Assembly (NCBI GenBank): GCA_016283275.1 | Contig: JAEEMP010000123.1 | Coordinates: 1-33,133 of the forward strand | DNA length: 33,133 bases | Source of the DNA: Lachnospiraceae bacterium | Lineage (GTDB): Bacteria > Bacillota > Clostridia > Lachnospirales > Lachnospiraceae | Reading direction: 5' to 3' | Shown: positions 14,804 to 30,138 of the stretch, one piece after another | How positions within the stretch are numbered: the first letter of the stretch is position 1 | Layout of the letters: each line of letters starts with the position of its first letter | Notes under the pieces: model-generated | What the model was told of the DNA's origin: nothing | The model's input: the letters and a program-made list of their open reading frames with translations, nothing else | Database searches by the model: none | Made by a program: the position numbers and the translations under genes

Positions 14804-15181
14804 ATGTATATTGAGATTGATTTTGACAGTGAAGAAGCTTATTATATGCAGCTTCGGAACCGTATAATCGAAGGGATAGCGACCGGACGGATCATAGAGG
14901 GCGAAGCTCTTCCGAGTGTGAGAAAAATGTCCGAGGACATCGGCATTAATATGCATACCGTCAATAAAGCATATACGCTTCTTAAGGATGAAGGGTTTGT
15001 AAAAGTTGACAGACGGCGGGGCGCGGTCGTATCGGTGGACAGTGATCATATCCTGGACATAAACCGATTAAAGAAAGAGTTAAACATTACCATTGCCGGA
15101 GCCAGTTGCAAAGGCATATCCAGAGACGAACTTATTACTATAGTAGATGAAATACTTAAAGAATACGGAGGTGAAGTATAA
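14804..15181 (+). CDS. GntR-family (YtrA-type) transcription regulator
   Basis: A compact 125-residue regulator. Residues about 10-75 are the GntR winged helix (YYMQLRNRIIEGIATGRI, EALPSVRKMSEDIGINMHTVNKAYTLL), followed by the wing RRGAVV and a short helical dimerisation tail. This is the YtrA layout, without a large ligand domain. ATG 14804 opens the conserved part. An in-frame GTG at 14795 is possible and neither has a strong ribosome site. Its stop overlaps the clpC start (TAATG). It occupies the place where ctsR-mcsA-mcsB sit in many Firmicutes, so it may regulate clpC. The inverted repeat over its promoter is the obvious candidate operator. Confidence 0.88.
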   Translation: MYIEIDFDSEEAYYMQLRNRIIEGIATGRIIEGEALPSVRKMSEDIGINMHTVNKAYTLLKDEGFVKVDRRRGAVVSVDSDHILDINRLKKELNITIAGASCKGISRDELITIVDEILKEYGGEV

Positions 15182-17643
15182 TGAGACTTCCTTTTACGTC
15201 AAAGGCTGAGGATGCCCTTGATTATGCTGCAAGGATATCCAAACAGTTGAGACATTATTATGTGGGCGGGGAGCATATCCTTGCCGGTCTTATCGGTGAA
15301 AACACGGGTGTGGCTGCAAATGTCTTAAGAAGTGCAGGTATTACCGTTGATGCTGTTATAGAACTTATAAAGGATCTTACAGTTCGCGGAGAAGGTACGA
15401 TGCTTCGTGACAGATCAGGATTTACACCGAAGACCGACAGGCTTATTGAGAGAGCGGAGGAACTAGCGGTCAAGTATAAAAGCGATGCAATCGGTACGGA
15501 ACATCTTTTACTTGCTATCCTTGAGGATACCACAAGCTGTGCGGTTCAGATACTCATAGGCCTCAGAAAGAATCCTCAGGCACTTTACATGGATACACTT
15601 GTATCAATGGGGCTTGATGATGCAACTATCCGCGAAGAACTTAAAAAGAGCAAGCGGGGCAAGAAAGACGGCACCATTTTAAAGCAGTATTCAAAGGATC
15701 TTACGGAACTTGCACGCGAAGGGAAACTGGATCCCGTGATCGGGCGAAACGATGAGATCACCAGAGTGATCCAGATACTTTCAAGACGCAATAAGAACAA
15801 TCCGTGTCTTGTGGGTGAGCCCGGTGTAGGTAAAACGGCGGTTGTCGAAGGCTTAGCGACCAGAATAGTCAACGGGGATGTTCCGAAAACCGTTCAGAAT
15901 AAAAAACTCTTAACGCTTGATCTTTCGGGCCTTGTTGCAGGCACGAAATACAGAGGTGAATTCGAAGAGAGGATGAAGAGGCTTCTTAACGAAGTTATAA
16001 ATGACGGAAATATCATTCTCTTCCTTGATGAGCTTCATACGCTTATCGGTACCGGCGGTTCCGAAGGAAGCCTTGATGCGGCAAATATGTTAAAGCCGGC
16101 GCTTTCAAGAGGCGAGCTTCAGCTTATAGGTGCCACCACGATGACCGAATACCGTAAGTATATAGAGAAAGACGCAGCTTTGGAACGTCGTTTCCAGCCT
16201 GTTGAGGTCAACGAGCCTACCGAAGAAGAAGCGATCAGGATACTTAAGGGTATAGCTCACAAATACGAAGAACATCACAGCGTTAAATATACGGAAGCCG
16301 CACTTGAAGCAGCAGTGAGACTTTCTTCAAGGTACATAAACGATCGTTATCTTCCCGATAAGGCGATAGATCTTATGGATGAAGCCGGTGCGGCCGCTAG
16401 GGTTAAAAGCCTTGAAAAGCCCGATAAGACCGCGACACTTCGCGAAGATATCGCCAAGATTGAGCAGCAGATAGCACGAAGCGTCAAGATCGAAGCATTT
16501 GCGCAGGCCGTAGAACTCAGAGGCAAGCAGGAAGCACTTCTCAAAAAACTCGCGGCAATAGAGAAGCGTGAGCGTTCCTCGGTCAATGCGGCAACATGTA
16601 CGGTTGATGAAAATAATATCGCCGATGTAGTAGCAATGTGGACAAAGGTTCCGGTCAAGAAACTTCAGGAAAAAGAAAGCGACAGGCTTTTGAAACTTGA
16701 GGATACGCTTCATAAGCGTGTAATAGGTCAGGAAGAAGCCGTCAAGAGTATCGCAAAGGCGATGAGAAGGCAGAGAGTAGGTCTCCAGGATCCGAATCGA
16801 CCGATTGGGTCATTTTTGTTCCTCGGTCCCACAGGTGTGGGTAAGACCGAGCTTTCAAAGGCGCTGGCAGAGGCTATGTTCGGTTCTGAAAATGCGCTTA
16901 TAAGAGTTGATATGTCGGAGTATATGGAGAGCCATTCGGTATCCAAACTTATCGGTTCTCCTCCCGGATATGTGGGCTTTGATGACGGCGGACAGCTTTC
17001 GGAAAAGGTAAGGCGTAATCCGTACAGTGTTGTTCTTTTCGATGAGGTTGAGAAGGCTCATCCGGATGTGTTCAATATTCTTCTGCAGGTGCTTGATGAC
17101 GGTCATATAACCGATTCAAAGGGCAGAAAGATCAACTTCAAGAACACGATCATCATCATGACCAGCAATGCGGGCGCACAGAGAATAGTCGATCCCAAGA
17201 ATCTCGGATTTACGTCCAAGTCGGATGCATCCAAGGATTACCTTAAGATGAAGGATTCGGTGCTCGATGAAGTCAAAAAGATGTTTAAGCCCGAATTTAT
17301 AAACCGTATCGATGAGATCATCGTGTTCCATCAGCTTGATAAAAAGAACCTTACGGATATCTGTACGCTTCTTTCCAAAAATCTTATCAAGAGATGCAAG
17401 GAGCAGATGAATATAGACTTGACCTTCTCGAAAGAATTAAAGGACTATATCGTTGATAACTTTGCCGACATGAAGATGGGCGCCCGTCCGATCAAGCGCG
17501 CGATCCAGTCGTTTGTGGAAGATGCGCTGGCAGAGGATATTCTTAGAAAGAACATAAGACCGGGTGATAAGGTTATTGCCAGGGTCAAGGACAAGAAGGC
17601 CGTATTTACGGTTAAGAAGGAAACGAAAGATGCCAAAAAGTAA
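15181..17643 (+). CDS. clpC: ATP-dependent Clp protease ATP-binding subunit ClpC
   Basis: An AAA+ unfoldase that feeds ClpP and remodels misfolded proteins. It has 820 residues, typical of ClpC. A double Clp-N domain (about 1-145) is followed by nucleotide domain 1 with Walker A GEPGVGKT at 212-219 and [13 protein letters not shown] middle region follows (about 410-480, UVR-like stretch [20 protein letters not shown]). Domain 2 has GPTGVGKT at 549-556, [14 protein letters not shown] and [11 protein letters not shown], then the C-terminal D2-small domain. GGAGGT lies eight bases before ATG 15181, inside the gntR 3' end. It overlaps gntR by one base and radA by 14. No CtsR-type heptad repeats are visible upstream, and no clpP is adjacent. 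Confidence 0.96.
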
Positions 17644-18988
17644 AACGGTATTTTATTGCACATCCTGCGGCTATGAATCATCCAAATGGATGGGTCAGTG
17701 CCCCGGCTGCAGGGAATGGAACACCTTTGTGGAAGAACCTGTAAGGAGTGATAAGGCAGGGAGCAAAAGAACAAGTACTTTAAACAATAAGCCTGTACTG
17801 TTAAAAGAGGTATCTGCCGATGAAGCGGAGCGTTTTTCGACAGGTTTACCCGAACTTGACCGTGTGCTGGGCGGCGGTATCGTAAAGGGTTCGCTTGTGC
17901 TCATCGGAGGAGATCCGGGTATCGGTAAGTCCACACTTTTATTACAGGTTACAAGAAACCTTTCGTTAAGCGATAAGAAAGTACTTTACGTATCGGGCGA
18001 AGAGTCGCTTCGACAGATCAAGATGCGTGCCGACAGGCTGGGAAGCGATTATAAGGATATGCTTCTTTTGTGTGAGACTAATCTTGACGATATAGAGACT
18101 TCGATACTAGATATAAAACCCGATGTTGTTGTAATCGACTCCATTCAGACAATGTACAGGGATGATGTAAGCGCGGCTCCGGGCAGCGTATCCCAGGTCA
18201 GGGAGGCGACATCGCTTTTGCTCCGGATCGCGAAAGCAAATGAGATATCGATATTTATAGTCGGTCATGTTACAAAAGAAGGGGCTGTGGCCGGGCCTAA
18301 AGTTCTTGAGCACATGGTGGACACCGTTCTTTATTTCGAAGGCGACAGACATGCAAGCTACAGGGTTCTTCGCGGTGTAAAGAACAGGTTTGGTTCCACG
18401 GATGAGATAGGCGTATTCGAAATGAGGGAAGAGGGCCTTAAAGAGGTGCCCAATCCCAGTGAGTTCATGTTAAGCGGTCGTGCCGAGGATGCGTCGGGTT
18501 CGGTCGTGACCTGTGCAATGGAGGGCACAAGGCCCATAATGGTCGAGATTCAGGCACTTGTTTGTAAAAGTGCGTTCGGACTGCCGAGGCGTCAGGCCAC
18601 AGGAATGGATTATAACCGTGTAAATCTTTTGATGGCAGTGATCGAGAAGCGCGGTGGCATTACGATCGGCGATCAGGATGCCTATATCAATATCGCAGGC
18701 GGGATCAGGATAAACGAACCCGCAACAGACCTCGCAACCGTTGCAGCCATCATATCTTCTTTTAAGAATAAACCGATAGACGAAAAGACCGTTATTTTCG
18801 GAGAAGTAGGCTTAAGCGGAGAGATAAGGGCCGTAAGCCTTGCCGAGCAGCGTATCAAGGAAGCGAAGAAACTCGGTTTTAAAACCTGTGTGCTTCCTTA
18901 TGCCAATAAGACAGATTCTCTTTTAAAGATAACCGGTATCGAACCGGTTTTTGTAAAGAACATAAATGAAGCCAAAAACTATTTCTAA
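17630..18988 (+). CDS. radA: DNA repair and recombination protein RadA
   Basis: A RecA-like ATPase that helps branch migration and processing of recombination intermediates. It has 452 residues. An N-terminal zinc finger (CTSCG ... CPGC, first 30 residues) precedes Walker A GGDPGIGKST at 93-102 and Walker B VVVIDSIQ. The RadA-specific KNRFG motif is at 251-255. The C-terminal Lon-like domain follows (about 275-452, GDQDAYINIAGGIRI, FGEVGLSGEIRAV). ATG 17630 lies in the last codons of clpC (14-base overlap) with GAAGG nine bases upstream; the earlier in-frame opening has no ribosome site. The clpC-radA order is conserved in Firmicutes. Confidence 0.96.
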   Translation: MPKSKTVFYCTSCGYESSKWMGQCPGCREWNTFVEEPVRSDKAGSKRTSTLNNKPVLLKEVSADEAERFSTGLPELDRVLGGGIVKGSLVLIGGDPGIGKSTLLLQVTRNLSLSDKKVLYVSGEESLRQIKMRADRLGSDYKDMLLLCETNLDDIETSILDIKPDVVVIDSIQTMYRDDVSAAPGSVSQVREATSLLLRIAKANEISIFIVGHVTKEGAVAGPKVLEHMVDTVLYFEGDRHASYRVLRGVKNRFGSTDEIGVFEMREEGLKEVPNPSEFMLSGRAEDASGSVVTCAMEGTRPIMVEIQALVCKSAFGLPRRQATGMDYNRVNLLMAVIEKRGGITIGDQDAYINIAGGIRINEPATDLATVAAIISSFKNKPIDEKTVIFGEVGLSGEIRAVSLAEQRIKEAKKLGFKTCVLPYANKTDSLLKITGIEPVFVKNINEAKNYF

Positions 18989-19130: not shown

Positions 19131-21344
19131 ATGAAAAAGAAAGTGTTAAAACTATTATCCGCGTTAATGACAGGCGTTCTTCTGCTGACTTTGGGAGCCT
19201 GCGGAAAAAACGGAAACGGCGGTAACGGTCAGGGTGCCAACGGCCAGGGCGGTAACGATCAGAGCGCTATCATGGAAAACGACGGATTTATGTGGACGGT
19301 AAAAGAAAATACCATTCCGATGCCCAAGAATAATTATATAAGCGGCGATATCAAGATAAACGGAGATATACTCAGGTTTATCATGCATGAATATGACGAA
19401 AAAAACGACAAATCGAGTTCTTATGTAGCTGAGCAGAATATTTCCGGAGGTTCGGTAAATAAAGTTCTTTCACTTGAAAGTTGTGTCAATGAGAACGATT
19501 ACATTCAGAACTGGTATGAAGATGAAAACGGATTTATTTTTTTGATATCGTCTTACGACGAAAAAAAGGATGAGTCCTCGTACATCATTCGAAAGACCGA
19601 CGGATCGGGAAATGTGTTAAATGAGATCGATGTTTCCAAAGCCATAAAAAGTGACAGTGATTATGTAGGATGTTTTGTACGGGATAAAGCCGGCAATGTA
19701 TTGGTTTCCGATGATTCCAAGATATATATACTGGATCAGGAAGGAAATCTTAAGAATAAGGTTTCGGTAGACGGTTTTACCAGTTCCATGGTTGAACTTG
19801 AAGACGGAAGGATCGTCGCAAGCGGTTATTTCGGACGAAAAGGGAATATTTCACAGATCATTGATGTAAATACGGGAAAACTTACGGATGAATTAAAGGA
19901 TGCTCCGGAGAGTTATACTCCGTGGATACATAAAGAAGACAATGTTTATTACGTGATCAATGATTCATTTTTGTATGAATACAATTTAGATACACAGACT
20001 TCGGAAAGAATCCTTGAGTGGGCGGATGCGGATATGCGATGCCCCAATACATGCATTATCAATGATAACGGTGAAGACGGTTTAAGGATCATACAGGTTA
20101 ATTACAGCGAAACGGGAGAAGAAAGTATTGCAATTGATATCCTGAAAAAAGTAGAAGACGACGGAAGCCGAAAGACCCTTATAATGGCTTCGTATTACGG
20201 CGACTATGCTATTGAAGAATTCGTAAGAAGCTATAACCGTTCGCAGACAGATGTCAGAGTTAAGGTGGTCAATTACAGTGATACTTATGACTGGGAAGCG
20301 ATCGCTGATGCCATGAAAAACGATATCCTTGCAGGAAAAGTGGACATTGTGGACAGCCGTGAGTTAGCCAGTCTTGCTGTAAATGATACAAATTATATAG
20401 CCCTTGACGATTATATTGAAAAGGATCCCGAAATAAATTTAGATGATTATTATGAAAGCGTTATGAAGGCCATGCGTACAAACGGTCATCTCTATTCGCT
20501 TTCTCCAAGCTTTGATATTCAGACAATGCTCATAAACGGAAAATATGTTCAGTCTGATAAGATCACGATGGATGAGCTTATTGCAATAAAGGAAAAAGTC
20601 GGCAAAAATTTCATGGGTCCTGCGACAGCCGAATTGATATTGTCGGTGTTTTTAAATGCGTATCCCCAATTTTTGGATATGGAAAACGGAACGTGCGATT
20701 TTGACAACGAAGAGTTTGTAAAGCTTCTTAAATTTGCTTCGGAGTTTAGATCGGGAGAACCCGATTTCGATATGGACTACGATGAATTTAAAGAGATACA
20801 GGAAGAGAAACTTGTGGTCGTTCCGATGAGTCTTTCAAGGTTTGAAGATATCCAGGTATACGAAAAGCTTATGAACGGAAATGTCAAATTTACCGGATAT
20901 CCGGTAGATAAAGGTTCGGGACATTTAATAGGCTTCAACAGCGGCTATTCGATCCCGAAAACATCCAAGAATCAGGAAGAGGCATGGAGTTTTTTGAAAA
21001 ATCTCATGCTTGAATCCTATCAGAACGGAAGTTATCATATGGACGGCTTCCCGATAAGAAAAGCAAGTTTTGATATTGTGGCAAAGTCAATGCAGGAACA
21101 AGGAGGCGGCGGTGGTATTTCTACCGGCAGCACTATGATCGAGTACGGTCCGATAAGAGATTCGGATATAGAACTCGTCAAAGGGATCATTGATAAGGTT
21201 GAACTTCCCGGTGAATATAACGATGATATAATCAATATCATAACCGAAGAAGCCGGTTCGGTATTTAAGGGAGGCAAGGATCCCAAAGAAGTGGCAGGAA
21301 TCATTCAAAACCGCGTATCTTTATACCTCGCGGAACATAATTAA
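19131..21344 (+). CDS. Large extracellular solute-binding lipoprotein with an extra N-terminal domain
   Basis: A 737-residue lipoprotein. The signal has lipobox LGAC with Cys24, followed by a Gly/Asn/Gln linker (GNGGNGQGANGQGG). Residues about 45-340 form a beta-rich region of repeated short strands (for example KAGNVLVSDDSKIYILDQEG), propeller-like in appearance. Residues about 345-737 look like a family 1 ABC solute-binding protein: LIMASYYGDYAIEEFVRSYN, ADAMKNDILAGKVDIVD, GHLYSLSPSFDIQTMLINGK, NSGYSIPKTSKNQEEAWSFL. Such proteins deliver sugars or peptides to ABC importers, but no permease or ATPase gene is adjacent. ATG 19131 follows AAGGGAG by seven bases. It is a single-gene unit with terminators on both sides. 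Confidence 0.85.
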   Translation: MKKKVLKLLSALMTGVLLLTLGACGKNGNGGNGQGANGQGGNDQSAIMENDGFMWTVKENTIPMPKNNYISGDIKINGDILRFIMHEYDEKNDKSSSYVAEQNISGGSVNKVLSLESCVNENDYIQNWYEDENGFIFLISSYDEKKDESSYIIRKTDGSGNVLNEIDVSKAIKSDSDYVGCFVRDKAGNVLVSDDSKIYILDQEGNLKNKVSVDGFTSSMVELEDGRIVASGYFGRKGNISQIIDVNTGKLTDELKDAPESYTPWIHKEDNVYYVINDSFLYEYNLDTQTSERILEWADADMRCPNTCIINDNGEDGLRIIQVNYSETGEESIAIDILKKVEDDGSRKTLIMASYYGDYAIEEFVRSYNRSQTDVRVKVVNYSDTYDWEAIADAMKNDILAGKVDIVDSRELASLAVNDTNYIALDDYIEKDPEINLDDYYESVMKAMRTNGHLYSLSPSFDIQTMLINGKYVQSDKITMDELIAIKEKVGKNFMGPATAELILSVFLNAYPQFLDMENGTCDFDNEEFVKLLKFASEFRSGEPDFDMDYDEFKEIQEEKLVVVPMSLSRFEDIQVYEKLMNGNVKFTGYPVDKGSGHLIGFNSGYSIPKTSKNQEEAWSFLKNLMLESYQNGSYHMDGFPIRKASFDIVAKSMQEQGGGGGISTGSTMIEYGPIRDSDIELVKGIIDKVELPGEYNDDIINIITEEAGSVFKGGKDPKEVAGIIQNRVSLYLAEHN

Positions 21345-22059: not shown

Positions 22060-23334
22060 CTAAAGGCTTATGCCTTCCGATATCAGTTTTCCTTTAAGAC
22101 GTTTGGTCACTTCTGCTTTTATGAAGGTGCCTTTTTCGGAATAGTCGGTTTCAAGGACTGTGGCCGTTTCATTTATGAGATTTAGCAATGCTCCTTTGTC
22201 AAACGGGATCGTAGCTTCTATGATCTCGTTTTCTTTGTAGAGTTCGTCCTTTATAAGATCCGTTAATGCATCGATGTTTTCACCGTTTTTGGCGGATATG
22301 TATATTTTGTCTTTGCTGTGTTTTCCGGGTGCCGGTACAACAGGAAGCTTATCGCATTTATTGTATACATATATTCTGGGAATACCGGTACAGTCAATTT
22401 CTTTTAATGTATCTTCGGTAACTTCAAGCTGTTCTCTTACATAATCGTCGGAGGAGTCGAGGACCACCAAAAGCAGATCGGCATTGCGCGCTTCGGAAAG
22501 TGTGGAGCGGAACGCTTTTACCAGTCCGTGGGGAAGATTGCTTACAAAACCGACCGTATCGGATAAAAGAAAACTTATTTTATCATCACAGTCAATCCGC
22601 CTTACCGTAGTATCCAGAGTCGCAAACAACATATCTTTTTCGAAGACCATTTTTTCCTCTTCGGTCTTATTAAGAGTCAAAAGCCTGTTCATAAGAGTTG
22701 ATTTGCCGGCATTTGTGTAGCCTACAAGTGCGACCATCGGAATATCGTTTTTGGTGCGGAGAGCTCTTTGCACTCCCCTGTCATGGTCGATCGAATTGAG
22801 TTCGCGTCTTACTTCCGTAAGGCGTCTTTCTATGTGGCGGCGGTCAAGCTCAAGCTGTGTCTCGCCGCGGCCTTTGTTACTCAGGGAACCGGTTGCACCC
22901 GCCTGACGCCCCAGACTTGTACGCATGCCGACAAGCCTTGGAAGAAGGTAATTTAAATTTGCCGCTTCGACCTGAAGGCGTGCTTCACGGGTTTTGGCTC
23001 TTCTTGCAAAGATCTCAAGGATCAGACCGGTTCGGTCAAGAACGGCCGTATCGACTGTATCTGTCAGGTTTTTTAACTGTGCCGGAGACAGATTGTCGGC
23101 GATAATGCAATAATCAGCCGAAAGTATCCGGGCTTGTTCTTTTAACTCGTATACCTTGCCGCTTCCTATATATGTGGCCGGATTTGGATTTGCAAGAGTC
23201 TGTATCAAAACTCCGCAGACTTCCATTTCACATGCTTTGATAAGTCTTTTCATCTCATCGAGCATGTATTCAAAATCTAAGCTTCCGCTATCGACGGCTA
23301 CCAGTATCGCTCTTAAGTCTTTTTCTTCTGTCAT
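22060..23334 (-). CDS. hflX: GTPase HflX
   Basis: A ribosome-associated GTPase that splits stalled or hibernating 70S ribosomes. It has 424 residues. The N-terminal nucleotide-binding-like domain includes NPATYIGSGKVYELKE at 51-66 and TAVLDRTGLILEIFARRA. The coiled region RQAGATGSLSNKGRGETQLE has the conserved GRGETQLE. The G domain has G1 GYTNAGKST at 205-213, G3 DTVGF at 259-263 and G4 NKCD at 325-328. ATG 23334 overlaps the malQ stop by four bases, so translation is coupled to malQ. Confidence 0.96.
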   Translation of the reverse strand: MTEEKDLRAILVAVDSGSLDFEYMLDEMKRLIKACEMEVCGVLIQTLANPNPATYIGSGKVYELKEQARILSADYCIIADNLSPAQLKNLTDTVDTAVLDRTGLILEIFARRAKTREARLQVEAANLNYLLPRLVGMRTSLGRQAGATGSLSNKGRGETQLELDRRHIERRLTEVRRELNSIDHDRGVQRALRTKNDIPMVALVGYTNAGKSTLMNRLLTLNKTEEEKMVFEKDMLFATLDTTVRRIDCDDKISFLLSDTVGFVSNLPHGLVKAFRSTLSEARNADLLLVVLDSSDDYVREQLEVTEDTLKEIDCTGIPRIYVYNKCDKLPVVPAPGKHSKDKIYISAKNGENIDALTDLIKDELYKENEIIEATIPFDKGALLNLINETATVLETDYSEKGTFIKAEVTKRLKGKLISEGISL

Positions 23335-24818
23335 CGTCTGTATATACCTGCGAGTGTTCTTATAAAGCTGCGTCTTTCCTCGGATATCGCGTCATGATAA
23401 AGCCGCCATCTCCAGTTTGCGCCTATCGTGGACGGATGGTTCATTCTGGCTTCATTGCCGAGCATTAAAATATCCTGCATCTGTAATATTACCACATCGG
23501 CGACGGAAGAGTAAGCCAGCCTTATAAAAGCGTTCGGAATATCATCTTTTTTCTTTACACCCAGATATTCATACAAAAATGCCAGCTTATAATCGTCAAT
23601 ATTCTTAAAATGTCCGACAAGAGTGTCGCTGTCGTGAGTGGTGCCGTACACCACACAGTTGTTATCTTCGAAATTATGCGGAAGATATGGGTTTGACGGA
23701 TCTTCGTTAAAGGCAAACAATAATACCTTCATACCCGGCCAGCCGAGCTTGTTCATGAGTTTTCTTACCTGAGGGATAACGACTGTTCCGAAATCTTCAC
23801 ATATAACAGGGGTATCTTTTGCCGCTGTTTCGATCACATCCGTTAATGCTTTTCCGGGGCCTTTATACCATTTTCCGACAGTTCCGTCCGGGGATGTTTC
23901 GGGAACGGCATAAGTTTTAACGATCCCCACAAAATGGTTGATGCGAATGACATCGTAGAGCCTTACATTCATCGCGACACGCCTGTACCACCATAAGTAA
24001 TTGTCCTTTGCCATCTCATCCCAGTCATATAAGGGATTGCCCCATTTCTGCCCGCCTTTTGAGTATGCATCCGGAGGGCAGCCGGCTACTTCATCGAAAA
24101 AGCCGTCTTTATTTATCTTAAAGAGATTCCTGTGTGCCCATACATCCGCACTGTCGGGCGAAACGTAGAGCGGGATCTCACCGATGATCTTTACGCCTCT
24201 GTCATTGGCGTATTTTTTAAGCTTATCCCACTGTAAGAAAAATTCATATTGTATGAAGTTAAAGAACGCGATATTGTCTTTAAGATCTTCCGTATATCTG
24301 TTTACGCTTCCGGGTTCATGATCTCTTATATCATCATCCCAGGACTGCCATTCGTTATTGTCAAAACGGTTTTTAAGCGCCATGAAAAGAGAGTAATCGG
24401 AAAGCCAGTATTCATTTTCTTTTACAAAAGAAGCATATCCTTGACTTGATTGGTCAAATCTCGAAAAGGCTTTATAGAGGACTTCAAATCTTGATCTGAA
24501 CAAAAGAGAATAGTCCACTTCGTTTTCCTCGCTGCCCCAATCATAGGCATTTATTTCCTCGGGGAAAAGGAGCTTATCGCGAACAAGACTTTCAAGATCG
24601 ATAAGGTAGGGATTTCCCGCAAAAGCGGAAAAAGCCTGATAAGGGCTGTCTCCGTAACCGGATGGACCTATCGGGAGCACCTGCCAGTATTTTTGCCTCA
24701 GATCCACTAATGTGTCCACAAAATTAAAGGCTTCCGTACCCATTGTTCCTATACCGTATTTTGAGGGTAGACTGCTGATCGCCAGTAGAATTCCGGCGCC
24801 TCTTTCAAGCGATTTCAA
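23331..24818 (-). CDS. malQ: 4-alpha-glucanotransferase homologue (GH77) with the catalytic nucleophile Asp changed to Asn
   Basis: GH77 enzymes move alpha-1,4-glucan segments in starch, maltodextrin and glycogen metabolism. The 495-residue chain aligns well over its full length: GAGILLAISSLPSKYGIGT, WQVLPIGPSGYGDSPYQ, SAFAGNPYLIDLE, GEIPLYVSPDSADVWAH, KWGNPLYDW and LGNEARMNHPST. Of the catalytic triad known from Thermus amylomaltase (Asp293, Glu340, Asp395), this protein has Asn294 in RINHF (family: RIDHF), Glu341 in CEDFG and Asp396 in THDSDT (family: THDNDT). The nearby conserved Arg is Val297. It may therefore be inactive or altered. ATG 24818 follows GGAGG. It is the first gene of malQ-hflX, divergent from a LacI regulator that may control it. 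Confidence 0.9.
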   Translation of the reverse strand: MKSLERGAGILLAISSLPSKYGIGTMGTEAFNFVDTLVDLRQKYWQVLPIGPSGYGDSPYQAFSAFAGNPYLIDLESLVRDKLLFPEEINAYDWGSEENEVDYSLLFRSRFEVLYKAFSRFDQSSQGYASFVKENEYWLSDYSLFMALKNRFDNNEWQSWDDDIRDHEPGSVNRYTEDLKDNIAFFNFIQYEFFLQWDKLKKYANDRGVKIIGEIPLYVSPDSADVWAHRNLFKINKDGFFDEVAGCPPDAYSKGGQKWGNPLYDWDEMAKDNYLWWYRRVAMNVRLYDVIRINHFVGIVKTYAVPETSPDGTVGKWYKGPGKALTDVIETAAKDTPVICEDFGTVVIPQVRKLMNKLGWPGMKVLLFAFNEDPSNPYLPHNFEDNNCVVYGTTHDSDTLVGHFKNIDDYKLAFLYEYLGVKKKDDIPNAFIRLAYSSVADVVILQMQDILMLGNEARMNHPSTIGANWRWRLYHDAISEERRSFIRTLAGIYRR

Positions 24819-24861: not shown

Positions 24862-24891
24862 AATTTACCACGTAAGAGCATATAAAGTCAA
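24862..24891 (-). promoter_or_regulatory. Promoter of malQ-hflX
   Basis: On the minus strand, TTGACT (24886-24891), an 18-base spacer and TAAATT (24862-24867) preceded by TGG. Confidence 0.55.
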
Positions 24892-24971: not shown

Positions 24972-24999
24972 TGAAAAAGCGTTTCGCTTCATATATACT
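24971..24999 (+). promoter_or_regulatory. Promoter of the LacI-family gene with an operator in the spacer
   Basis: TTGAAA (24971-24976), a 17-base spacer and TATACT (24994-24999). The inverted repeat AAGCG-TTT-CGCTT (24977-24989) fills the spacer, as expected for self-repression by a LacI-type protein. Confidence 0.65.
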
Positions 25000-25034: not shown

Positions 25035-26057
25035 ATGGCAACAACAATCAAAGATATCGCAAGCAGACTCGGGGTGGCTGTCAGTACCGTATCAAAAGGG
25101 CTTAACGGAGCTCCCGATATAAGTGAAGATTTAAGGCAGCTTGTGCTTGATACTGCGGTCGAAATGGGATATAAGACCAAAAAGATGCGTAAGGAAGAGC
25201 ATAAGAAGCTTGTTATTTTCGTTGAAAACATGGAATTTGCCGACGAAGAGGATTTCGGACACGATCTTATCCTGGGTTTTCAACAGATGGCATACAGAGA
25301 TAACTGGACAGTCAATGTAGTAAGGGTCAATTCAAATTTTCAATCCCGCGAAAAATACAGTACGTACATGCTCAAGCATGGGTATTCGGGTGCATTTGCA
25401 ATGGGATTTGCACTTCAGGATCTGTGGATGAAGCAGATATCAAAGACGGATATTCCGACCGCTCTTCTTGATAATTATGTTCCGTTAAATCGTAATGTCG
25501 GTTATGTGGGAACGGATTCCGATGAAGGTATAAATCTTGCCATCAAGCAGCTTGTCAAACTTGGGCATAAGAGAATAGCATTTTTAAACGGTTCGCCGAA
25601 CTCCTGGGTATCCGACAGGCGCCAGGAAGCATACGAAAACGGGATGAAAGAAAACGGTCTTGAACCCGATCCCGCACTTACGGCTTACGGTTACTATGTT
25701 GCAGACAGTGCGCGTTACCATGTACCGGGCATGCTTAAGGCCGGTGCGACCGCGATCCTGTGCGGAAACGATCTTATTGCTTCGGGTGTATATGAAGTTT
25801 GTGAAAAAGAAGGGCTTAAAATTCCCGAAGATATAAGTGTTATCGGTTTTGACGATATACCTCTCGCAACTGAGATCTCACCGACGCTTTCAACAATTCG
25901 GCAGGACAGACTGGAACTTGGCAAGTGCGCTTATTTCACGCTTAACTCGCTTATCCATAAGGTATCGATAAGCAAGACTATGTTAAGACCGGAGTTTATA
26001 GAAAGAGAGTCGATCGCCAAAGCATCAAAACGGTCAACTTATAAGGAGTCGAAATAA
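25035..26057 (+). CDS. LacI-family transcription regulator
   Basis: A 340-residue LacI/GalR repressor. Residues 3-50 form the helix-turn-helix and hinge helix (TIKDIASRLGVAVSTVSKGL, where family members often have SRVLN). Residues about 58-330 are the periplasmic-binding-protein-like sensor, with GYVGTDSDEGINLAIKQLV, GHKRIAFLNGS, ILCGNDLIASGVYEVCEKEG and VIGFDDIPLATEISPTLSTI. The ligand is probably a sugar. ATG 25035 follows AAAGGAAC. It is divergent from malQ, which suggests it controls alpha-glucan use, and it is probably self-regulated through the repeat in its own promoter. Confidence 0.93.
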   Translation: MATTIKDIASRLGVAVSTVSKGLNGAPDISEDLRQLVLDTAVEMGYKTKKMRKEEHKKLVIFVENMEFADEEDFGHDLILGFQQMAYRDNWTVNVVRVNSNFQSREKYSTYMLKHGYSGAFAMGFALQDLWMKQISKTDIPTALLDNYVPLNRNVGYVGTDSDEGINLAIKQLVKLGHKRIAFLNGSPNSWVSDRRQEAYENGMKENGLEPDPALTAYGYYVADSARYHVPGMLKAGATAILCGNDLIASGVYEVCEKEGLKIPEDISVIGFDDIPLATEISPTLSTIRQDRLELGKCAYFTLNSLIHKVSISKTMLRPEFIERESIAKASKRSTYKESK

Positions 26058-26134: not shown

Positions 26135-26165
26135 CTGTTTCGTTGGTAAAATCCAAGAAACAAAT

Positions 26166-26236
26166 AGGGGCATAGTTCAAAGGTAGAACAGTGGTCTCCA
26201 AAACCATCGATGTGGGTTCGATTCCTACTGCCCCTG
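26166..26236 (+). tRNA. trnW: tRNA-Trp (anticodon CCA)
   Basis: A full cloverleaf of 71 bases. The acceptor is AGGGGCA / TGCCCCT, the D stem GTTC/GAAC, and the anticodon stem GTGGT/ACCAT holds the loop CTCCAAA with anticodon CCA. The T stem GTGGG/CCTAC carries TTCGATT, and the discriminator base is G. The 3' CCA is not encoded. It stands alone with its own promoter and terminator. Confidence 0.95.
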
Positions 26237-26238
26237 TC

Positions 26239-29081: not shown

Positions 29082-29525
29082 ATGGTAGATATTCAGCTTA
29101 CGGAACACCGCGCAGAGATAGAGAGGCTTCTTGCATACATACCATGGCTCGAAGAAAAGAGCGGAGCTACGGTATCAAGGGTCTATAATGACAACGATAT
29201 TTCAAAGACGTCGGTTTCTTTTCCCGTATATGATGCAACGCTTTTAAGTTTTGTAAAAGAAGCGGATGCCACAGGGCTTATGTACGATAATTATCGTTAT
29301 ATTTATTCGGCATACGGGCTTAAGACTTTTGAAGATGAAAGACGTGCGATAGAGGATGCCGGGGTCAAGGACGGTGATGTTCTTTGCGGCATTCTTACAA
29401 GATATGTAAAAGGCGGTATTACAAAAGGTATCGTGTGGACCGATGCGGTTCGCGAAGGGATTTTTCTTCTTGTATTAAAGAAAATGAAAAAATTGTTGGA
29501 AATATGGGACGCACCGCTTGCATAA
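29082..29525 (+). CDS. DUF6508-like protein of unknown function
   Basis: A soluble 147-residue protein. It resembles DUF6508 proteins (from memory): the N-terminal helix ERLLAYIPWLEEKSG is followed by FPVYDATLLSFVKEADATGL and a C-terminal region CGILTRYVKGGITKGIVW with the typical DAVREGIF. No catalytic motif is apparent. ATG 29082 follows AGGGAG by nine bases. It precedes a TetR gene by 25 bases, so the two probably form one transcript and the regulator may control both. Confidence 0.75.
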   Translation: MVDIQLTEHRAEIERLLAYIPWLEEKSGATVSRVYNDNDISKTSVSFPVYDATLLSFVKEADATGLMYDNYRYIYSAYGLKTFEDERRAIEDAGVKDGDVLCGILTRYVKGGITKGIVWTDAVREGIFLLVLKKMKKLLEIWDAPLA

Positions 29526-29550
29526 GCGGGATCAAACGGGAGGAGTTAAA

Positions 29551-30138
29551 ATGAGCGATAAAGCGGCACGGAAAAAACAGTATATTCTCGATACCGCCAG
29601 AAAAGTGTTTTCGGAAAAAGGCTTTAAGGATGTCACCATGAAGGACATTGTTGAGGCCTGCGAGATAAGCCGCGGAGGGCTTTATATCTATTTCGAGAGC
29701 ACGGAACAGATCCTTTTGGAACTCATCAAACTTGATTCGTCGGAAAATGACGATGTTTTTTCACGTTCCCGCAAAGATGCCACCGCAGGTGATATTCTTG
29801 CACTGTTCTTAAAAGAACAGAAGAAGGAACTTCTGTCCAAAAAGGACAATCTTTCCGTAGCGATATATGAGTATCTTTTCACCAAGAAAAACGGCGGAGA
29901 TACCTTAAATATATACAAAGACCGGTTTTCGTCCGCCGTTAACGTTCTTACACATCTTATTGAGAACGGTACGGAAAACGGTGAGTTATATTGTGAAGAT
30001 GCCGAAGGGGCGGCCCGTAACATCATGTATGTCATAGAGGGGCTTAAGATAGCGGCCAATACCGTAGGGGTCACGGAGCAGGATATAGACAACGAACTAC
30101 TTTTTATAATGAGCGGTCTTCTTGCAGACGAAGAATAA
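29551..30138 (+). CDS. TetR-family transcription regulator
   Basis: A 195-residue TetR repressor. The N-terminal DNA-binding domain is clear at about 5-55: KKQYILDTARKVFSEKGFKD, VTMKDIVEACEISRGGLYIY and FESTEQILLELI. Residues about 70-195 form an all-helical ligand and dimer domain with no recognisable subfamily, so the inducer is unknown. ATG 29551 follows AGGAG by five bases; an in-frame upstream start at 29518 lies inside the previous gene and is not needed. A terminator follows directly. Confidence 0.92.
   Translation: MSDKAARKKQYILDTARKVFSEKGFKDVTMKDIVEACEISRGGLYIYFESTEQILLELIKLDSSENDDVFSRSRKDATAGDILALFLKEQKKELLSKKDNLSVAIYEYLFTKKNGGDTLNIYKDRFSSAVNVLTHLIENGTENGELYCEDAEGAARNIMYVIEGLKIAANTVGVTEQDIDNELLFIMSGLLADEE

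Follow-up and report, generated by a model that had tools for sequence, protein, structure and literature searches.

The DNA considered here, referred to as the window, is the whole of a 33,133-nucleotide stretch from a Lachnospiraceae bacterium of the rumen (GenBank assembly GCA_016283275.1, contig JAEEMP010000123.1, positions 1 to 33,133 of the forward strand), and the gene of interest within it is a paralogue of malQ, here called malQ2, which belongs to the GH77 family of 4-alpha-glucanotransferases and diverges from a LacI-family regulator gene. Its frame runs from 24818 to 23331 on the minus strand, and a GGAGG motif at 24829-24825 precedes the TTG start codon. A first-pass annotation, made from the sequence alone, had described the gene as a MalQ homologue in which the catalytic nucleophile, an aspartate, is replaced by asparagine, and both parts of this description hold. 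The protein matches the Pfam profile PF02446 with 550 bits over profile positions 2-462 of 465, i.e. over nearly the whole GH77 profile, and the NCBIfam model NF011080 (4-alpha-glucanotransferase) with 597 bits against a cut-off of 477. In a pairwise chain alignment Asn294 corresponds to Asp293 of the Thermus aquaticus amylomaltase. A misalignment at this residue was considered and rejected, as the pairwise chain alignment and the multiple alignments with other GH77 members concur and neither places the nucleophile elsewhere.

Table. Features of the malQ2 locus, in window coordinates
Feature	Position	Strand	Remarks
ClpC-like and RadA-like genes	15181..18988	+	Pfam; one border of the conserved neighbourhood
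hflX-like GTPase	22060..23334	-	Pfam; its ATG overlaps the malQ2 stop codon
malQ2, GH77 4-alpha-glucanotransferase paralogue	23331..24818	-	495 aa, TTG start; Pfam PF02446, NCBIfam NF011080, AlphaFold model
Codon 396, GAC = Asp	23631..23633	-	Third carboxylate kept, equivalent to Thermus Asp395
Codon 341, GAA = Glu	23796..23798	-	Acid/base position kept, equivalent to Thermus Glu340
Codon 294, AAC = Asn	23937..23939	-	Nucleophile position, equivalent to Thermus Asp293; Asn in 6/6 genus copies
Codon 214, GAG = Glu	24177..24179	-	Equivalent to Thermus Asp213 (-1 subsite); Glu in 6/6 genus copies
Operator-like tandem repeat ACGAAA-N4-ACGAAA	24836..24851	-	33 bp before the malQ2 start codon
Promoter-like TTGACT-N18-TAAATT	24862..24891	-	Just before the repeat; a predicted, not a mapped, promoter
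LacI-family regulator	25035..26057	+	Divergent from malQ2; Pfam
tRNA-Trp	26165-26238		Beside the LacI gene, beyond LacI from malQ2
DUF6508 and TetR genes	29082..30138	+	Pfam; other border of the conserved neighbourhood

Much of the remaining active site is in place. A set of 21 residues of the active site, cleft and loops was drawn from the available part of PMC8781629, and 18 of them are kept in malQ2. Asp213 is replaced by Glu, Asp293 by Asn and Leu342 by Phe; the first of these (Glu214 in malQ2) is a further change in the -1 subsite that the first-pass annotation lacks. The acid/base Glu341 and the third carboxylate, Asp396, align with Glu340 and Asp395 and are retained, as had been stated. 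Thus, of the residues expected of an active 4-alpha-glucanotransferase (EC 2.4.1.25), the aspartate nucleophile is missing, and the acid/base glutamate and the third aspartate are present. The claim of an intact fold also fits the AlphaFold model (mean predicted local distance difference test score, pLDDT, 90.2; predicted template-modelling score, pTM, 0.92; alignment of 57 sequences), whose best match in the Protein Data Bank (PDB) is the T. aquaticus amylomaltase 1cwy (Foldseek, TM score 0.93, 39% identity), so that the protein is predicted to have the GH77 barrel. With a conserved catalytic motif lost and the rest conserved under selection, malQ2 has the sequence features expected of a pseudoenzyme.

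Six copies of this kind were found in the genus of the window, i.e. malQ2 itself and five orthologues with 95, 71, 64, 64 and 64% identity to it. All six have Asn294, Glu214, an insertion that turns EDLG into EDFGT, and HDS in place of HDN; Glu341 and Asp396 are invariant among them, as is a stretch of 14 residues around Asn294, LYDVIRINHFVGIV, down to 64% identity. The asparagine is encoded by AAC in three copies and by AAT in the other three, and one of the copies (L082) comes from Lachnospiraceae bacterium YSD2013, whose record is labelled as a strain assembly and not as a metagenome-assembled genome (MAG). Drift at neighbouring conserved positions had been put forward as a further argument against a sequencing error; HDN to HDS is indeed fixed in all six copies, but Arg to Val297 is part of a clade-wide change and says little about the nucleophile, since members of the paralogue clade, and of the groups next to it, mostly carry I, L or N in place of the canonical Arg.

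The gene is under strong purifying selection. Nei-Gojobori ratios of non-synonymous to synonymous substitution (dN/dS) are 0.097 between the window and genome G008, and 0.016, 0.030 and 0.026 for the pairs of G001, G002 and G013, these four being the unsaturated malQ2 pairs (the other tested malQ2 pairs are saturated at synonymous sites); for G001 and G013 the ratio is 0.041 in canonical malQ versus 0.016 in malQ2. On these ratios a pseudogene reading of malQ2 was rejected.

A second malQ, which the first-pass annotation had proposed to look for, lies on another contig of the window's genome (G000:C102:19416-20852), where LacI and phosphorylase genes precede it, and has the canonical motifs RIDHFRG, EDLG and HDN. 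Among 18 genomes of the genus, six have an Asn copy and the same six also have a canonical malQ (in two pieces in G008); of the other 12, several of which are incomplete, one is without a GH77 match and one has fragments only. The split canonical gene (G008:C48, L047) stands beside an intact Asn copy and may be an assembly indel in a genome that is 72% complete. More generally, a canonical-type second copy was found in 16 of the 17 searched genomes with a gene of the paralogue clade described below, in one case in two pieces (17 of 18 named loci could be searched). A strict codon pattern, D-x-x-R-x-N-H-F-x-G, occurs in one of 199 genomes across the phylum, which is the window's own, and with Asp instead of Asn it occurs in 27 of 199; such a pattern catches only part of all GH77 genes.

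To place these copies among their relatives, 253 GH77 sequences of at least 400 aa were collapsed to 172 distinct rows, and rows with at least 85% identity were thinned to a tree of 136 tips, in which Asn rows were kept and the motif columns were masked; clade membership of the 172 rows was assigned by the nearest kept tip. Shorter pieces were left out, including the broken genes of G105 (L055) and G466 (L245), L121 and the split canonical copy of G008, and from the collection scan the 80 best of 357 relatives were kept. Every sequence in which the nucleophile or the acid/base residue differs falls in one group of 33 tips (Shimodaira-Hasegawa-like approximate likelihood ratio test, SH-aLRT, 99). 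This is the MalQ2 clade, a GH77 paralogue clade of Lachnospiraceae which is usually followed by maltodextrin-type transporter genes. One or both of the two residues are changed in 17 of 47 MalQ2 rows versus none of 125 other rows: nine have an acid/base Asp only, six a nucleophile Asn only (these are the window's genus), two have both changes, and the remaining 30 keep Asp and Glu.

Mapping the Asn-bearing lineages, another check that had been suggested, puts all of them in this one clade with at least three origins. Three changes from Asp to Asn are needed on both the 136-tip and a 47-tip tree, and a single origin of the Asn rows is rejected on the latter (approximately unbiased test, p-AU 9.4e-5, a value that assumes the group to have been named beforehand and comes from a tree with long branches); the acid/base residue changed twice on the larger tree and once on the smaller. 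The other two Asn origins are L117 (RMNHF, DDYGG) and L240 (KFNHF, DTYCG), from genomes assigned to one genus with Roseburia faecis. Asp213 to Glu joins the asparagine in the window's genus and in L117, and the acid/base residue of L117 is changed too; in L240 residue 214 is still Asp, residue 292 is Lys and the acid/base residue is Asp. Roseburia faecis M72 itself (L106) has an operon-type GH77 in which the nucleophile is kept and the acid/base position is Asp. Asp for Glu at that position is also seen in the operon-type GH77 of L094, L103, L104, L107, L238 and L243.

One member of the clade has had most of its active site dismantled. The malQ2-type GH77 at locus L248/L278 (genome G460, G460:C230:2875-4347) lies within a complete operon. 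Its identity to L117 is 58% outside the active site, but inside it only 5 of 20 residues are shared. Where the other clade members show at least 90% conservation, L248 retains 3 of 13 positions in the active site versus 131 of 156 elsewhere (Fisher p 8e-6), and it also keeps 13 of the 14 residues that distinguish the MalQ2 clade from canonical copies. This inverted pattern of conservation was not seen in the other four sequences tested (L240, L117, L232 and the window). Loss of the active site ahead of everything else would not be expected from mere decay, and L248, although a single lineage and not that of the window, is the strongest single sign in these sequences that some MalQ2 members may work without catalysis.

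The gene neighbourhood links malQ2 to a putative regulator of maltodextrin use. A LacI gene resembling that of the window (25035-26057) lies upstream in all 43 clade rows that have upstream sequence, as the first frame in 40 and the second in 3 (four of the 47 clade loci end at malQ2), and an adjacent LacI gene is what a LacI-controlled maltodextrin regulon would be expected to have. At least two of the homologues of a solute-binding protein (SBP), MalF, MalG and GH13 follow malQ2 in 32 of 47 clade rows, with Pfam assignments for the R. faecis and L117 genes; the other 15 are the six of the window's genus, L054 and L232, which are without the transporter, and seven that are cut short.

In the window the order is ClpC, RadA, malQ2, LacI, DUF6508 and TetR, with other genes interspersed, and at L034 and L035 it is ClpC, RadA, LacI, malQ2, DUF6508 and TetR. 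ClpC and RadA precede LacI-malQ2 in L086 and L284 and are also near it in L034-L036; DUF6508 and TetR come after the operon in L083 and L085, and after malQ2 in L034 and L035. Both borders around a complete operon were not found at any locus examined, and no maltodextrin-type transporter or GH13 gene was found by Pfam between the border genes in the window. Since the border genes are shared and the transporter and GH13 genes are absent, the window malQ2 looks like an operon remnant, and it appears to be what remained after the transport part was lost. At L080-L082 LacI and malQ2 point in one direction and are separated by a tRNA-Trp gene, whereas in the window tRNA-Trp lies on the far side of LacI; from this we infer that LacI and the tRNA gene were inverted in the lineage of the window, and that the LacI-malQ2 pair stayed together through the inversion.

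Upstream of malQ2, the tandem repeat ACGAAA-N4-ACGAAA was derived from word counts and has one match in the window, where 0.02 are expected. With the first base of each half relaxed, the repeat precedes 34 of 36 scanned genes (shuffled mean 0.02 of 36); the scan covered 34 of the loci of the MalQ2 clade and two loci outside it, L111 and L112, which are the two misses. The exact repeat lies within 140 bp of 27 of the 36 genes, and a sigma70-like match occurs 35-45 bp before the repeat in 22. By its position the repeat is a candidate site of the adjacent LacI. A palindromic LacI operator had been considered and was rejected, as near-perfect 16-base palindromes gave scattered matches only. About 46 bp before the LacI start (window 24977-24989) there is also a near-palindrome, AAGCGAAACGCTT, possibly a second regulatory site.

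In a scan of eight genomes of the genus, the exact repeat has 23 sites in the six genomes with an Asn copy (5 for a reversed-pattern control) and 2 sites in two genomes without one (control 3). The genome of the window has five, at malQ2, a GH13 gene, a type I pullulanase gene, an SBP gene at a contig end, and an interval between histidine kinase and acyltransferase genes, so that four of the five are at malQ2, starch or SBP genes. The pullulanase site is at the start of the type I pullulanase frame (713 bits) and inside the longest possible frame; the true start is probably downstream of the repeat. Besides malQ2, the sites of G001 and G013 precede an SBP-MalF-MalG operon and a CBM48-GH13 gene; G007 has sites at an SBP-MalF-MalG operon and a pullulanase-like gene, and G008 at a pullulanase-like gene, a GH13 gene and two others. 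One site of G002 is 2.2 kb away from a MalF match that follows it, and one (C114) is without a reference gene within 4.5 kb. The histidine kinase site of the window's genome (L319, G000:C101:20058-20073), beside a hybrid histidine kinase gene and an MBOAT/acyltransferase region, may be due to chance; a site in G008 (L326, G008:C188:2594-2609) is likewise beside a hybrid histidine kinase gene and an MBOAT region, with no obvious starch gene.

Taken together, a LacI gene that always accompanies malQ2, the putative regulon, and the retention of malQ2 after loss of the transporter suggest that malQ2 is probably a non-catalytic, maltodextrin-binding regulatory protein of the maltodextrin regulon, likely a sensor or regulatory partner. 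In such a scheme, malQ2 would be a pseudo-amylomaltase of the maltodextrin-import-operon type without the carboxylate to which the glycosyl group is attached in the enzyme intermediate. Such covalent intermediates have been observed in DPE1 (PMC4705983) and in the Streptococcus agalactiae amylomaltase (PMC7990933), as far as the available parts of these papers go, and since the nucleophile carboxylate is needed for the intermediate, the Asn294 protein should not disproportionate normally; this activity would be abolished or nearly so, and would presumably be carried out by the second, canonical malQ. Less certainly, malQ2 may bind maltodextrin in its retained cleft. Binding by a GH77 protein that is free of the nucleophile is physically possible, as the Thermus chain 5jiw, in which residue 293 is Ala and residue 395 is Asn, was solved in complex with a 34-mer cycloamylose (judging by the sequence and title of the entry). 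The bound state might then be passed by protein contact to the adjacent LacI or to enzymes of the pathway, and Asp213 to Glu may, at a guess, rebalance the charge around Arg292 after the nucleophile charge was lost. The more specific version, in which malQ2 is a cytosolic maltodextrin sensor that acts directly on the neighbouring LacI, as a bacterial analogue of Gal3 that derives from a GH77 enzyme, is put forward tentatively. It is equally tentative that an operon amylomaltase of Lachnospiraceae was repeatedly converted in this way, leaving in the genus of the window a bare LacI-sensor pair that would control starch genes elsewhere. The first-pass annotation had offered two readings, a non-catalytic glucan binder or an enzyme with altered chemistry. 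The repeated catalytic changes in one clade, the purifying selection, the canonical copy and L248 favour the former as regards loss of catalysis, and the glucan binding is plausible. The pairing with LacI, the operator-like repeat and the operon ancestry are additions to that annotation.

Several observations weigh against a non-catalytic regulator. As most MalQ2 rows keep both Asp and Glu, loss of catalysis does not extend to the whole clade, and the linkage to LacI, which these members share, is alone no proof of a sensor role. Glu341 and Asp396 are kept in malQ2, which would allow a residual or different activity. L248 has lost the greater part of its sugar contacts, which means that not every clade member can have sugar binding as its role, and two clade genes have an in-frame stop (L284, G105:C28; L281, G466:C1), which means that the gene is dispensable in some lineages. 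Same-type (MalF-type) transporter genes also occur in genus genomes without malQ2, such as G017, G005 and G014. As for the putative regulon, its link to LacI comes from the position of the repeat, the reversed-pattern control has 3 matches in the window's genome, and only two genomes without an Asn copy were compared; moreover, the starch-gene sites (L317, L318, L320, L322, L328 and L288) read TTTCGT-N4-TTTCGT on the coding strand, which is the opposite orientation to malQ2. Non-catalytic function and sugar binding are predictions from sequences and models.

Other explanations have to be weighed against this one. The least improbable of them, if still unlikely, is that malQ2 joins canonical MalQ, glycogen phosphorylase or a GH13 enzyme in a complex, as a subunit without catalysis in the manner of ISA2 with ISA1 and not as a partner of the repressor. 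In the genus, canonical malQ has a phosphorylase gene beside it, [Clostridium] polysaccharolyticum has a natural protein of 1263 aa in which GH77 and phosphorylase are fused, and L248 has kept all but one of the 14 clade-specific residues; helices 409-419, 424-437 and 480-492, which may form a contact face, hold 7 of the 14. However, this face is predicted from sequence and the catalytic-looking members have the same residues, and no phosphorylase gene was found among the two upstream and five downstream frames of the 47 clade rows, a set that includes truncated loci. (The fusion is at L131:3120-6911, with a carbohydrate phosphorylase part; long GH77 frames in G034, G352, G381 and others may be alike.) Rather less probable is an enzyme with altered chemistry, in which Glu214, one carbon longer than Asp, would serve as nucleophile or base, or a different donor would be used. 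In its favour stand the joint appearance of Glu214 and Asn294 in two of the three proposed origins and the invariance of Glu341 and Asp396 in the genus, and catalytic residues are known to have migrated in other pseudoenzymes (available part of PMC10211241). Against this, the third origin, L240, keeps Asp214 and combines it with Lys292 and an acid/base Asp, the acid/base residue of L117 is changed too, L248 in the same clade has lost its active site wholesale, and Asp213 is described, in the part of PMC8781629 at hand, as a substrate-binding residue outside the catalytic three.

A decaying duplicate that lost its nucleophile without selection is very improbable. The internal stops in the clade genes of G105 and G466 and the absence of transporter genes around malQ2 in the window's genus are what decay might leave, but a dN/dS of 0.016-0.097 in four pairs, a stretch at Asn294 that is invariant in six copies, and the retained promoter-like and operator-like elements are not. 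Finally, the window comes from a draft assembly of 130 contigs, in which a sequencing or assembly error at codon 294 would be conceivable, but the asparagine recurs in six assemblies, one of them not labelled a MAG, and with both synonymous codons; an error, which the first-pass annotation had also argued against, is thereby refuted and is assigned next to no probability.

Compared with the Thermus-type amylomaltase (1cwy, 5jiw), malQ2 shares the fold, the length, 39% identity and 18 of 21 positions, among them the acid/base residue and the third carboxylate, and differs in the nucleophile Asn, Asp213 to Glu, Leu342 to Phe and a one-residue insertion after EDFG. Natural replacement of otherwise conserved residues is known from the GH77 enzymes of Borrelia, and some MalQ2 relatives share with them Arg291 to Lys; the changes named there, Arg291 to Lys and Asp395 to Glu, do not include the nucleophile, as far as the available part of PMC8781629 goes. 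In the malQ-glgP operon of Streptococcus mutans, malQ is likewise under a maltodextrin regulator, malR, but is needed for starch metabolism (PMC3737437, available part), whereas here the copy linked to the regulator is without the nucleophile and the phosphorylase gene goes with the other copy.

Enzyme relatives that have turned to other roles are familiar elsewhere: Gal3 of yeast is a galactokinase relative without activity that signals to Gal80, and the plant isoamylase ISA2 is a non-catalytic partner of ISA1. Like these, malQ2 would be a paralogue of a pathway enzyme that lost catalysis, kept the fold and a presumed ligand site, and remained tied to its pathway; Gal3 and ISA2 belong to other families, however, and the partner and the loss of activity of malQ2 are proposed from its sequence. 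An ISA2-ISA1-ISA1 structure is among the structure matches of the malQ2 model, by its title.

The catalytic triad of GH77 is stated to be conserved in a recent review (Chem Rev 2024, PMC11046441, available part), and no GH77 protein with an Asn nucleophile and no GH77 pseudoenzyme was found in the open-access literature as far as its texts were available, a weak negative with few subscription journals covered. Pseudoenzymes as such and natural active-site changes in GH77 are already known. As NCBIfam names malQ2 an ordinary 4-alpha-glucanotransferase, the use of starch by Lachnospiraceae of the rumen and gut, among them Roseburia faecis with its acid/base Asp in the operon copy, may be misread. 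If malQ2 is indeed a non-catalytic regulator, three independent losses of the nucleophile in one clade, next to one regulator, would make a comparison set with catalytic-looking relatives, and a compact system for asking how an enzyme turns into a sensor.

Two further neighbours of malQ2 in the window may be mentioned. The hflX-like gene was considered as a fixed functional partner, and this was rejected, as the overlap is present in only two of the six genomes; its adjacency to malQ2 is found only in the window and in G008. Between RadA and LuxS, at 19131-21344, there is a gene, also present in G008, for a protein of 737 aa whose second half has a weak match to a solute-binding domain.

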